36,873 nt of DNA from NCBI GenBank assembly GCA_001412365.1, contig LKUE01000198.1, positions 1 through 36,873 of the forward strand, given 5' to 3'. Under the pieces are notes generated by a model that was given only the letters and a program-made list of their open reading frames with translations, was not told where the DNA came from and searched no databases. The stretch's first letter is position 1; each line of letters starts with the position of its first letter. Below are positions 28,302-33,557 of the stretch, piece after piece. The position numbers and the translations under genes were made by a program. This DNA comes from Desulfuromonas sp. SDB. Lineage in GTDB: Bacteria > SDB-A.

Positions 28302-28330
28302 GTTAATATTCTTTATAAGTGATAAATCTT

Positions 28331-28828
28331 ATGGATTACGAACAAATTGACATTTTCGAAGAAGATTTTTGGAAGTTAAAGAATATTCTTACCAATCTAA
28401 AAAACATTTTAGACGCCAGAATGATTCTGTTAATTGACCGGGCTGGTCAACTAATTGCTTCCGCAGGTGATCCCGAAGATATTGATGTTATGGCATTTTC
28501 TTCATTGGTGGCTGCAGACTATGCGGCAACCAGTCACTTAGCTACTTTAATTGGTGAAGATGAATTTTCCACCCTGCATCATCAAGGTCAGCGTCATAAT
28601 ATTTTCATTCAAATTGTAAATAATAAATTTATTTTAGCAGTTATTGCCAAAGCACATTATCCCCTGGGTCGAGTGAAAGTAGAAACGCTGAGAACCAAAC
28701 AGGAATTATCTGAAGTATTTGTATCAATAACTCAAAAAATGCAGGAAGAGAAACCCGAAAAACTTCCTTCAGAGGACCTTTCCAGTGAGATTGATAACTT
28801 TTTAGAGGATTTTTTCAACAATTTATGA
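28331..28828 (+). CDS. Roadblock/LC7-domain protein (MglB-like)
   Basis: LDARMILLIDRAGQLIASAGDPEDIDVMAFSSLVAADYAATSHLATLIGEDEF...; next to an MglA-like GTPase. ATG 28331 or GTG 28319 possible as start. Confidence 0.8.
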   Translation: MDYEQIDIFEEDFWKLKNILTNLKNILDARMILLIDRAGQLIASAGDPEDIDVMAFSSLVAADYAATSHLATLIGEDEFSTLHHQGQRHNIFIQIVNNKFILAVIAKAHYPLGRVKVETLRTKQELSEVFVSITQKMQEEKPEKLPSEDLSSEIDNFLEDFFNNL

Positions 28829-28898: not shown

Positions 28899-29480
28899 GT
28901 GTCAGTAATAAACTACGCTTCCAGAGAAATAAACTGTAAAATCGTCTACTACGGACCGGGACTGGGTGGAAAGACAACCAATTTAAAGAAAGTTTACGAA
29001 AAGGTCAATCCCAGTAACCGAGGAGAGATGATATCACTGGCTACAGACATGGATAGAACTTTGTTTTTTGATTTTGTACCGGTAAACTTAGGAACGATAA
29101 GAGGTTTTAAGACCAGGTTTCATCTATATACAGTCCCCGGTCAGGTTTATTATAACGCTTCCAGAAAATTAATACTGAGGGGAGTGGATGGAGTGGTATT
29201 TGTTGCTGATTCCCAGATTGAACGATTAGATGACAATGTTGAAAGTATCAAAAATTTAATTGAAAACTTAAAGGAATATAATCTTAAGCTATCCGAAATA
29301 CCCTTTATAATTCAGTACAACAAAAGGGATCTGCCCAATATTGCTCCCCTGGATCAACTGGAGAGATTGTTGAATCCTCTGAAAGTCCCATCTTTTGAGG
29401 CAGTGGCTACTGATGGTATCGCTGTTTTTGCCACTTTAAAAGAAATCTCTAAAATGGTTCTTAAAAAACTTTCTCAATAA
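28899..29480 (+). CDS. MglA-like small Ras-family GTPase
   Basis: [22 protein letters not shown]-loop, [44 protein letters not shown] start with CGAGGT upstream. Confidence 0.93.
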
Positions 29481-29522: not shown

Positions 29523-30623
29523 ATGTCATTAAATAATATTGGAAAATCCTTTTTTCATGCCCTTCACGGTATAAAAATCACTTTAAAAACTCAAAAACAC
29601 ATACATCTTCATATATTTATCTTCCTCCTGCTTATCTACGTAATAATATTCGGGGGAGTGGGCTTGGAAGATGCGCTGATTTTAGCAGGAATTTCAATAA
29701 TGGTTATCATGGCAGAAATGATTAATACTGCCATTGAATTACTCTGTGATTACGTGACCACAAAACATCAGGAATTTATCGGTATGGTTAAGGATGTAGC
29801 TGCGGGGACAGTATTAATGGCAACCCTGGCTGCCATCATCATGGGGTATATAATTCTTGCTGATCCTTTAATTGTTTCCATAATTAAATTTAAATATCTT
29901 TTAGATAAAATACCTTTACTGGTAATCTTTGTGCTGCTATTTCTATTTGGTTTATTAATAATTATTTACAACCGTCTTACCTATAATAAATATAAGTTTT
30001 CCTTCAGCGGATTGTCTTTTGGAATATCCTTTTTGGTCTGCTGGCTATTATTTGAAGCTTTTTCAATTACCTTCATTTTCATGCTGGTAGTGGGGGGAAT
30101 TATCTTAATTGAAGCAATACTTCAAAACAGCAAATCAGACCGGGTATACTTAAGTGGAATTTGGGGCATCCTGTGGGGTTTATTCATTTATAAATTATTC
30201 CATATTGAAATCAATATTGCCCTCAATCTTGCTATTTCTTCACTGCTCATTGGCGCTTGCCCCGTTTTAGGTTCGGCATTTATCGCCAATCTAGGTTTTC
30301 CTTCAACCTCTGTGGGGCTGGCAGTTGCCGGAGAATTAGTTTTCCTGACTTTTATATTAATTTGGGGAAATAGATTTAAATCGCACTTCAGCAGCAATAA
30401 TTATTCTATCTGGGTAAACAGAAAAAATCCTTTATTATTGTTAACCATACTGATTTGCTCTTCTCTTCCCCTTCCCCTGTCCGGGGCAATTGCAGGATCA
30501 GTGGTAGCCATTGCTTTTGAAGTTAATAAAAAAACCGCCTGGATTATAATTTTTATTGGCATTATCATAAAAATGACCTTAACCTATTTCTCTTTACCAC
30601 TTTACCATAGGTTAGGAGGTTGA
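29523..30623 (+). CDS. Membrane protein: DgkA/undecaprenol-kinase-like domain + degenerate PAP2-like region + COG2426/PF06695-like domain
   Basis: N-terminus SFFHALHGIKITLKTQKHIHLHI...AEMINTAIELLCDYVTTKHQEFIGMVKDVAAGTVL matches DgkA motifs; C-terminus LPLPLSGAIAGSVVAIAFEVNKKTAWIIIFIGIIIKM resembles small multi-drug-export family. Confidence 0.7.
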   Translation: MSLNNIGKSFFHALHGIKITLKTQKHIHLHIFIFLLLIYVIIFGGVGLEDALILAGISIMVIMAEMINTAIELLCDYVTTKHQEFIGMVKDVAAGTVLMATLAAIIMGYIILADPLIVSIIKFKYLLDKIPLLVIFVLLFLFGLLIIIYNRLTYNKYKFSFSGLSFGISFLVCWLLFEAFSITFIFMLVVGGIILIEAILQNSKSDRVYLSGIWGILWGLFIYKLFHIEINIALNLAISSLLIGACPVLGSAFIANLGFPSTSVGLAVAGELVFLTFILIWGNRFKSHFSSNNYSIWVNRKNPLLLLTILICSSLPLPLSGAIAGSVVAIAFEVNKKTAWIIIFIGIIIKMTLTYFSLPLYHRLGG

Positions 30624-30624
30624 G

Positions 30625-31557
30625 ATGAGGGTTGTTGTTACTGGCGGCGCCGGGTTTTTAGGAACACATCTAATCAGGGCATTACTTAATCGTGGGGATG
30701 AGGTTATCTGTGTGGATAACTTTATCACCGGCACTCAGGATAATATTAGAAATTTTAAATCTGAGAAATTTCATTTAGTTGAAGCAGATATATGCAATCA
30801 ATTTAAAATCAAAGGGACTGTGGATTTTGTTTTTCATTTAGCTTCTCCCACCAGCCCCCATGACTACTTGGAACATCCCATCTTCACGCTAAAGACGGGA
30901 GCATGGGGAACAACTAATGCTCTTAATCTCGCCTTGGACAAACAAGCCGGCTTTTTATTATCCTCAACTTCGGAGGTTTACGGAGATCCGGCGGTAAATC
31001 CCCAGCCTGAATCTTATTGGGGCAATGTCAATCCCATCGGACCCCGCTCTGTATACGATGAAGCTAAACGATATGCAGAAGCAGTAACCATGGCTTATCA
31101 CCGTAAATATAACCTAAATTCTTATATTATCAGAATATTCAACACCTACGGTCCCAGAATGAGATTAAATGACGGCAGGGCAATTCCCAATTTCTTTAAG
31201 AAAGCTTTTACCAACCAAGATATCATCATCTACGGGGATGGGCAGCAGACCAGAAGTTTCTGTTATGTTGACGACTTAATCAAGGGATTGGTAAAACTGT
31301 CCAATAGTAATTATCATCTCCCGGTTAACATCGGCAATCCCATGGAGACCTCTATTCTCAATCTAGCAAAAACAATTATCCGCTTAACTAATTCCCGGTC
31401 AAAAATAATATTTGAAAAATCACTAACCGATGATCCCAAGGTAAGAAAGCCGGATATAACAAAAGCCCGAAAGATGCTTGATTGGGAACCGGGAATTGGA
31501 TTAAACCAGGGTTTAGAATTGACCAGGGACAGTTTTATAAGGGAGCAACAAAAATGA
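30625..31557 (+). CDS. NAD-dependent epimerase/dehydratase, UDP-glucuronate decarboxylase (UXS)-like
   Basis: VTGGAGFLGTHLIRALLNRGDEVICVDNFITG, HLASPTSPHDYLEHPI, SSTSEVYGDPAVNPQPESYWGNVNPIGPRSVYDEAKRYAE (YxxxK). Confidence 0.85.
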   Translation: MRVVVTGGAGFLGTHLIRALLNRGDEVICVDNFITGTQDNIRNFKSEKFHLVEADICNQFKIKGTVDFVFHLASPTSPHDYLEHPIFTLKTGAWGTTNALNLALDKQAGFLLSSTSEVYGDPAVNPQPESYWGNVNPIGPRSVYDEAKRYAEAVTMAYHRKYNLNSYIIRIFNTYGPRMRLNDGRAIPNFFKKAFTNQDIIIYGDGQQTRSFCYVDDLIKGLVKLSNSNYHLPVNIGNPMETSILNLAKTIIRLTNSRSKIIFEKSLTDDPKVRKPDITKARKMLDWEPGIGLNQGLELTRDSFIREQQK

Positions 31558-32279
31558 AAGGAATAATATTAGCAGGGGGACTGGGCACCCGTCTTCTTCC
31601 CCTAACCAAAGTAACCAACAAACATTTACTTCCCATATACGACCGTCCCATGATTTATTACCCCATTCAGAAAATGGTAGATGCTGGAATTACTGAGATA
31701 ATTTTAGTGGTAGGGGATAAATCAGCAGGAGAATTCATCAGACTTCTGGGCAACGGCAACCACTTGGGGTTAAACCACATATATTATATTTTTCAAGACG
31801 GAGAGGGAGGAATTGCCCAAGCGCTGGGACTCTGTGAATATCTGGTAAAAAATGAAAAATTCATGGTTATTTTAGGTGACAATATTTTTCAAGACGATTT
31901 AACTTCCTTCCTCCGTCAATTTAATCAACAAAAATCTGGGGCGAGGATATTTCTGAAGGAAGTGGATGAACCTCAAAGATTTGGAGTACCCCGGATAGAA
32001 GATAATGAAATAATCACTATATTGGAAAAACCCCCAAAACCTCCCTCCAACTATGCAGTTACCGGCATCTACATGTACCCTCCCGATGTTTTTGAAATTA
32101 TCAGCCAGCTTCAACCTTCATCCCGGGGAGAACTGGAAATAACCGATGTCAACAATGCTTACGCTCAGCGCGGGGAATTGAAGTTCAATTTTTTAAAGGG
32201 ATGGTGGACTGATGCCGGCACGTTTAATTCCTACCGGCATGCCTGGGCACTGGTACTGGGAGATGAGCACATTAAATGA
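31554..32279 (+). CDS. rmlA: Sugar-1-phosphate nucleotidylyltransferase (glucose-1-phosphate thymidylyltransferase-like)
   Basis: MKGIILAGGLGTRLLPLTKVTNKHLLPIYDRPMIYYPI, LGDNIFQD, EKPPKPPSNYAVTGIYMYPP; ATG 31554 overlaps preceding TGA. Confidence 0.88.
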   Translation: MKGIILAGGLGTRLLPLTKVTNKHLLPIYDRPMIYYPIQKMVDAGITEIILVVGDKSAGEFIRLLGNGNHLGLNHIYYIFQDGEGGIAQALGLCEYLVKNEKFMVILGDNIFQDDLTSFLRQFNQQKSGARIFLKEVDEPQRFGVPRIEDNEIITILEKPPKPPSNYAVTGIYMYPPDVFEIISQLQPSSRGELEITDVNNAYAQRGELKFNFLKGWWTDAGTFNSYRHAWALVLGDEHIK

Positions 32280-33109
32280 AAATACTTATAACGGGAGGAG
32301 ATGGTCATTTAGCCAAACAGATTAGTTCTCTCCTCCATGGATACCAGGTTGCTTCTCCGGGCAAACAACAATTGGATATAACCGAGCCCCGGTCAGTGGA
32401 AAAATGGGCACAGCAATTTAAACCTGAGTTAATTATTCATAGTGCGGCAATTACCGATGTAAATTACTGTGAGCAAAATCCGGAACAGGCTTTCCTGGTG
32501 AACACCTATGGTACAATTAATCTGGTCAATCACAATCCTCATTCCCGGTTTATATTTATCAGCACTGATTACGTTTTTGACGGAGAGAAAGACAGTCCTT
32601 ATCATGAATATGATTTAACCAATCCCCTGTCCGTTTATGGAAAATCTAAATTAGCCGCAGAAAATTTCATCCAATCCCGGAGCAGAGCATATATTATCAT
32701 CAGAACTTCCTGGCTTTTTAACTCCGCTGCTGATTTCTTAACTAAAATTGCTGGTAAAATCAGACTGGGGAAGACTATTGAAATTATCGGAAATCAGTGG
32801 GGAAATCCAACCATGAATTGGGATCTGGCGGAAGCGGTGTTGAACCTGGTTGATTGTACTTACACCGGAACAGTAAATATCACTAACACCGGAACCACCA
32901 CCTGGTTTGATATTGCCCGATACTATATTGACCAGAAAAATATTAAGAATGTCGAATTGGTCAATATAAGTATTGATGATTATCCTCACCAGGCTCCCCG
33001 TCCTAAATACAGCGCTCTTTCCTCAAATCTATTCAAACATATTTTTAAATATAAATTACCTGACTGGAAAACATCAATTTTAAAACACAAGGAGTTCAAC
33101 ATTGATTGA
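32276..33109 (+). CDS. rmlD: dTDP-4-dehydrorhamnose reductase-like SDR
   Basis: ILITGGDGHLAKQI, LDITEPRSVEKW, STDYVFDGEKDSPYHEYDLTNPLSVYGKSKLAAE. Confidence 0.9.
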   Translation: MKILITGGDGHLAKQISSLLHGYQVASPGKQQLDITEPRSVEKWAQQFKPELIIHSAAITDVNYCEQNPEQAFLVNTYGTINLVNHNPHSRFIFISTDYVFDGEKDSPYHEYDLTNPLSVYGKSKLAAENFIQSRSRAYIIIRTSWLFNSAADFLTKIAGKIRLGKTIEIIGNQWGNPTMNWDLAEAVLNLVDCTYTGTVNITNTGTTTWFDIARYYIDQKNIKNVELVNISIDDYPHQAPRPKYSALSSNLFKHIFKYKLPDWKTSILKHKEFNID

Positions 33110-33557
33110 AGGGGTTATAATCAAAGAATTGAAAACTCATCCGGATGAACGGGGAAGATTAACTGAGATATTAAGAGGCGATGATGATATTTTCAATACA
33201 TTTGGACAGGTCTACTTGACCACCAATTATCCCGGAGTGGTAAAAGCCTGGCATCTTCATCATCTTCAAACTGATAATGTTTGTTGTATCCGGGGAATGA
33301 TAAAGTTAGTTCTTTTTGATCAAAGAGAACACAGCTCAACCTACCAGCAGATCCAGGAATTTTTTATCGGAGATCATCAGATGAAACTAATCTCAATCCC
33401 CCCCCAGATATTTCATGGATGGAAATGCATTTCATCAACAGAATCCATAGTAATCAATATCCCTGATAAACTTTACAATTATCAAAAACCTGATGAATAC
33501 CGGCTGCCTTTTAATACAGATCAAATCCCTTATAACTGGGATATCATGATGAAATAA
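33102..33557 (+). CDS. dTDP-4-dehydrorhamnose 3,5-epimerase-family cupin
   Basis: HPDERGRLTEILRGDD, YPGVVKAWHLHHLQTDN, IPPQIFHGWKCI, YNYQKPDEYRLPF; TTG start with AAGGAG upstream. Confidence 0.82.
   Translation: MIEGVIIKELKTHPDERGRLTEILRGDDDIFNTFGQVYLTTNYPGVVKAWHLHHLQTDNVCCIRGMIKLVLFDQREHSSTYQQIQEFFIGDHQMKLISIPPQIFHGWKCISSTESIVINIPDKLYNYQKPDEYRLPFNTDQIPYNWDIMMK

Follow-up and report, generated by a model that had tools for sequence, protein, structure and literature searches.

The window, which is the whole 36,873-nucleotide stretch of Desulfuromonas sp. SDB DNA analysed here, contains a gene that joins a DgkA-type lipid kinase domain, a probable remnant of a PAP2 phosphatase and a divergent PF06695 domain in a single chain. 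It lies between genes resembling mglB and mglA on its 5' side and a run of NDP-sugar genes on its 3' side. The features of this region are as follows, with the supporting evidence in parentheses.

28319-28828, plus strand: mglB-like (roadblock) gene (NCBIfam MglB model, E = 2e-21, below cut-off; synteny)
28899-29480, plus strand: mglA-like small GTPase gene (TIGR00231, E = 4e-7, below cut-off)
29523-30623, plus strand: fusion gene, DgkA kinase, probable PAP2 remnant and PF06695-like domain (366 aa reading frame; orthologues of the same length in G001-G003)
29523-29858, plus strand: DgkA-type lipid kinase domain, aa 1-112 (Pfam PF01219, alignment to E. coli DgkA, residue table)
29859-30206, plus strand: probable PAP2-derived membrane segment, predicted to be catalytically dead, aa 113-228 (hhalign, group test, residue table)
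30207-30620, plus strand: divergent PF06695 (COG2426-like) domain, aa 229-366 (Pfam, hhalign, AlphaFold model of aa 223-366)
30625-31557, plus strand: NDP-sugar dehydratase/epimerase (SDR) gene (TIGR01181, E = 1e-37, below cut-off; synteny)
31554-32279, plus strand: rmlA-like nucleotidyltransferase gene (TIGR01208, E = 2e-69, below cut-off; synteny)
32276-33109, plus strand: rmlD, dTDP-4-dehydrorhamnose reductase gene (TIGR01214, E = 6e-72, above cut-off; synteny)
33102-33557: rmlC-like gene, the end of the window's sugar operon

The fusion gene is genuine: it opens with an ATG and runs for 366 codons, and the strand opposite it is closed by many stops. The next ATG lies at 30625, leaving the single base between the fusion gene and the NDP-sugar genes that the first-pass annotation had described. 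We examined four genomes of the phylum, representing two genera and including that of the window, and in all four the orthologue is exactly 366 aa long and carries both the Pfam DAGK_prokar and PF06695 matches. The fusion is a real domain architecture. The proteins of the three relatives are 42-45% identical to that of the window, and this exact conservation of length at 42% identity, together with a fixed operon, points to a maintained protein. One of the orthologue-bearing genomes matches record JAFGIG010000140, named 'candidate division WOR-3' in GenBank, a name now placed under Caldifarciminota at NCBI. No NCBIfam model matches the fusion protein, and a full-length AlphaFold prediction with two sequences in the alignment (pLDDT 39) is not interpretable.

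When the four genomes are compared, we observe a conserved gene order of ybaB, recR, mglB-like, mglA-like, fusion, NDP-sugar SDR, rmlA-like and rmlD, with a receiver-histidine-kinase gene next on the other strand after the sugar genes. In the three relatives, the rmlC-like gene is missing from this position, and the histidine-kinase gene directly follows rmlD. The mglA-like gene, named from its sequence and its MglB-like neighbour and 89-90% identical in the relatives, is directly 5' of the fusion gene in all four genomes. The fusion gene in the three relatives begins no more than 2 bases from the mglA stop, such that the genes abut or overlap by one base, and the SDR gene begins at the base right after it; the corresponding gaps in the window are 42 bases and 1 base. 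The immediate downstream position of the NDP-sugar genes, which had been reported for the window alone, therefore recurs with every orthologue, while the linkage to the mglA/mglB-like genes, which had been missed, is equally tight and conserved. This arrangement suggests that mglA and the fusion gene share a transcript and that their products perhaps share a complex. Among 49 loci of DgkA or DgkA-PAP2 genes from other phyla, none has mgl or rml genes within 1.5 kb. The phylum also has separate BacA, PAP2, DedA and canonical PF06695 genes, and carrier recycling would thus not depend on the fusion protein; no DUF368 was found in the phylum's genomes.

The N-terminal domain is the most readily assigned. 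PF01219 (DAGK_prokar) matches aa 12-112 across profile positions 2-102 of 102 (E = 1.3e-23, 83.1 bits versus a cut-off of 22.3), and as this match recurs in all four orthologues, the earlier assignment of the first ~115 residues to the DgkA family is borne out. Residues E65, N68, E72, D76, K90 and D91 are invariant in the orthologues and, when aligned to the solved structure, correspond at a constant offset of 4 to Glu69, Asn72, Glu76, Asp80, Lys94 and Asp95 of E. coli DgkA, which structure and mutation have tied to catalysis (PMC4703834). The equivalents of E. coli Glu28 and Glu34 are here Gln24 and His30. These are the usual residues in the 31 DgkA-PAP2 fusions that we collected for comparison, where 20 have Gln and 11 have Glu at the first position and 30 of 31 have His at the second, and they are therefore normal for the group. 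The invariant catalytic residues and the typical Gln24/His30 make it likely, from the predicted catalytic core, that the kinase domain is active. The fusion protein is the sole DgkA found in the genome; its sequence does not discriminate between undecaprenol and diacylglycerol as the substrate.

The middle segment requires a more cautious reading. It had been described as PAP2-like, which holds when the comparison is anchored on the DgkA domain: aa 1-228 align collinearly with the 31 DgkA-PAP2 fusions over 225 columns (hhalign, 99.8%, E = 9e-29), with the bulk of this score coming from the DgkA part. It does not hold for the segment alone, as Pfam PAP2 (PF01569) has no match up to E = 1 in the four orthologues, and profile-profile comparison of the isolated middle with PAP2 gives only 0.6% (hhalign). 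In single-sequence tests, the score gained from aa 113-228 exceeds that of most shuffles, whereas aa 160-228 perform no better than shuffled sequence. These three negative results would be expected if the middle were instead an unrelated four-helix spacer that resembles PAP2 through hydrophobic composition and equal length. We consider this unlikely on account of the group tests, in which 25 real PAP2 halves add a mean of 12.8 bits to the family model beyond their DgkA parts, whereas other membrane proteins add 1.3 bits, reversed halves 2.6 and 8-residue-block shuffles 7.8. A core-only model likewise gives 7.2 bits, compared with 0.8 for unrelated proteins and 3.9 for reversed sequences, and a middle-only model gives 11.1 bits for PAP2 halves, 6.1 for reversed halves and 1.0 for PF06695/DedA proteins. 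The median end point of the alignments between real PAP2 halves and the family model is aa 223. On this modest evidence, the middle probably descends from the PAP2 half of a DgkA-PAP2 fusion. Two other origins, a second DgkA copy (hhalign, 1.3%) and a duplicated half of PF06695 or DedA (0.2-1.1%), were considered and rejected.

Whatever activity a PAP2 ancestor had, its catalytic residues are not retained. In a joint alignment, the His of the SGH motif, present in 31/31 DgkA-PAP2 fusions, is Phe or Leu in the four orthologues; the Arg of SRx5H, likewise 31/31, is an invariant Glu197; and the His of SRx5H, again 31/31, is Ser, Gln, Lys or His. In an alternative hhalign alignment, the SGH segment falls opposite a gap. 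On either alignment, any phosphatase is predicted to be dead, and the loss of catalytic residues that the first-pass annotation had noticed extends to all four orthologues. The specific residue pairing given there, with SGL in place of SGH and SKSDRVYLSGI in place of SRx5H, is not reproduced by the family alignment. The best-conserved stretch of the middle, TFxFxLxxGGIILIEAxLxN....VY, argues that the PAP2 remnant is not simply decaying.

At the C-terminus, PF06695 matches aa 303-352 with an E-value of 1.8e-5 and 25.8 bits, which is under the curated cut-off of 30.7. Support comes from hhalign, where aa 223-366 match 34 PF06695 proteins at 93.7% (E = 2e-7) and reversed profiles give 0.2-0.3%. 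With the Pfam match present in every orthologue, the resemblance to PF06695/COG2426 proposed earlier is supported. PLPLSGA in the window's protein corresponds to the P-x-P-x-[ST]-G-A loop of PF06695; PxPxS is retained in all four orthologues, while the Gly of the loop is Ser in three. None of the four has the ELRG..P motif that PF06695 carries close to its start, and the alignments are gapped there. An AlphaFold model of aa 223-366 built on six sequences (pLDDT 69, pTM 0.63) contains a broken helix pair at the PLPLS loop, the form that a re-entrant loop would take, although this likeness is not independent evidence, as four viral PF06695 loci were in the model's alignment. Fold searches with the model returned no significant match, and the non-significant ones include three viral VTT-domain proteins (TM 0.32-0.44) and, among PDB matches, no DedA-like solved structure. 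The domain is 34-59% identical among orthologues, with invariant polar residues.

The link to DedA that had been put forward for this family is reproduced for PF06695 proteins but is not supported for the fusion's own C-terminus. A distant relationship between PF06695 and DedA has been published (PMC7818093), and our collected PF06695 proteins reproduce it, matching DedA at 67-86% (hhalign), whereas aa 223-366 match DedA/VTT (PF09335) at only 0.7%. BacA was also tried as a relative of the C-terminus and rejected (0.1%). Within the collected proteins, we observe a divergent PF06695 subgroup with lengths of 217-243 aa (L058-L061, from G069, G056, G040 and G047; the set comprises six loci, L058-L063). 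This subgroup matches DedA at 86%, compared with 67% for canonical PF06695, and on these profile comparisons it may bridge the two families.

The first-pass annotation had also called for a search for the same architecture in other genomes, and in our analysis it proved not to be common. A profile built from the four sequences was run on 386 genomes (E <= 1e-8) and matched 105, but only the four genomes of this phylum are matched past about aa 237. PF06695 occurs in 98/386 genomes, and in none of these does another PF06695 match share a frame with a DgkA match; the only other long PF06695 frame (503 aa) is in G220, where the DgkA match is on a different contig. The 386 genomes thus hold no second DgkA-PF06695 fusion. 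Scans of species-representative contigs, viral contigs and plasmids yielded no further fusion, with the contig scan using patterns from a single sequence that would miss distant relatives. The viral contigs hold only four PF06695 loci, with neither a fusion nor a DgkA-PAP2 gene, and the plasmid search returned a single partial DgkA match. NZ_CP154629.1, a 2.63 Mb Acetoanaerobium noterae record in the plasmid collection, carries a dgkA-like stretch and seems to be a misfiled chromosome. As far as we have searched, the fusion architecture is confined to one small, little-studied phylum, and it is apparently undescribed in the literature searched.

In this protein, then, the main DgkA catalytic residues are intact, the PAP2 residues are lost, a PF06695-like domain follows, and the place of the gene is fixed. 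The explanation we favor, with about even confidence, is a membrane lipid-alcohol kinase of the DgkA family that arose from a DgkA-PAP2 fusion, whose phosphatase half is dead and whose tail is a non-catalytic lipid-handling or scaffold element. The DgkA domain would use ATP to phosphorylate a lipid alcohol on the cytosolic side of the membrane, and conversion of undecaprenol to undecaprenyl phosphate is somewhat likelier than phosphorylation of diacylglycerol, as the gene is coupled to NDP-sugar genes. With the opposing phosphatase lost, the enzyme would be left as a kinase working in one direction. Neither the dead PAP2 helices nor the PF06695-like tail would be catalytic; they could hold the lipid phosphate or hand it on, or alternatively place the kinase in a complex. 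Counting against this explanation are the negative hhalign result for the middle alone and the failure of aa 160-228, in single sequences, to exceed shuffles; Gln24 and His30 in place of the two Glu residues also count against it, although they are usual in DgkA-PAP2 fusions.

Two other functions have to be weighed against this one. If the protein served phospholipid turnover by phosphorylating diacylglycerol, and its tail were no more than structural, the rml-type neighborhood would be a coincidence of operon layout. DgkA-family sequence does not separate the two substrates, the genome's only detected DgkA is this one, and the upstream operon genes (ybaB, recR, mglB and mglA) are unrelated to sugars, all of which make this reading tenable; yet the direct junction to NDP-sugar genes in all four genomes speaks against it, the conservation of the tail, with its invariant polar residues, suggests more than a spacer, and we regard this reading as somewhat doubtful. 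Less probable still is the proposal of the first-pass annotation that one polypeptide serves as both carrier kinase and transporter, with DgkA making undecaprenyl phosphate and a DedA-flippase-like tail moving it across the membrane. Consistent with such a role are the distant relationship of PF06695 to DedA, the sugar pathway next door in all four genomes, and the known fusions of DedA or DUF368 to carrier-lipid enzymes described below. Against it, the C-terminus has no direct similarity to DedA and lacks ELRG in 4/4 orthologues, the separate DedA, BacA and canonical PF06695 proteins of the phylum make the fusion unneeded for transport, and a product that the kinase makes on the cytosolic side requires no inward flipping. 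We found no PF06695 protein of demonstrated function in the literature searched, and the transport claim did not gain from our analysis; a flippase role for the tail is possible but unsupported. An arrangement in which the DgkA kinase, a dead lipid-binding PAP2 and a PF06695 translocase act serially on undecaprenyl phosphate under the control of an MglA/MglB-like GTPase switch would be a very long shot.

Under the favored kinase reading, the protein bears on two wider questions. That a PF06695-like domain occurs naturally in one chain with a kinase producing lipid phosphates points, circumstantially, to the handling of lipid phosphates by the PF06695 family. In addition, the phosphatase part of a kinase-phosphatase fusion has apparently lost its catalysis here, marked by the change of Arg to an invariant Glu, so that an enzyme which could have worked in both directions would now act as a kinase only.

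Compared with known systems, the fusion protein shares its kinase domain and main catalytic residues with stand-alone DgkA/undecaprenol kinase (PF01219) but bears 250 further membrane residues. Its tail matches PF06695/COG2426 (Sm_multidrug_ex) by profile and retains the PxPxS loop, but falls under the Pfam cut-off and is without ELRG, whereas canonical PF06695 members are stand-alone proteins. DgkA-PAP2 fusions are common (roughly 39/290 genomes; about 235-260 aa), and we found no discussion of them in the literature searched. Those at L097-L126 have intact kinase and phosphatase motifs, and it is curious that a kinase and the phosphatase opposing it should share a chain. In these fusions, four hydrophobic segments come after the kinase, with an order and spacing that match aa 1-228 here; unlike them, the present protein is without the PAP2 catalytic residues, has an invariant Glu in place of the Arg and carries the extra PF06695-like domain. 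DedA-PAP2, DUF368-PAP2 and DUF368-BacA fusions have been described (PMC9876793, PMC10127716), and in these, too, a single polypeptide combines an enzyme acting on the carrier lipid with a membrane domain of translocase type. The present protein differs in having a DgkA kinase as its enzyme, a phosphatase predicted to be dead and, as its membrane domain, a degenerate PF06695 rather than DedA or DUF368. What appears to be new is the combination of a DgkA-PAP2-type kinase, an apparently dead phosphatase and a PF06695-like tail.
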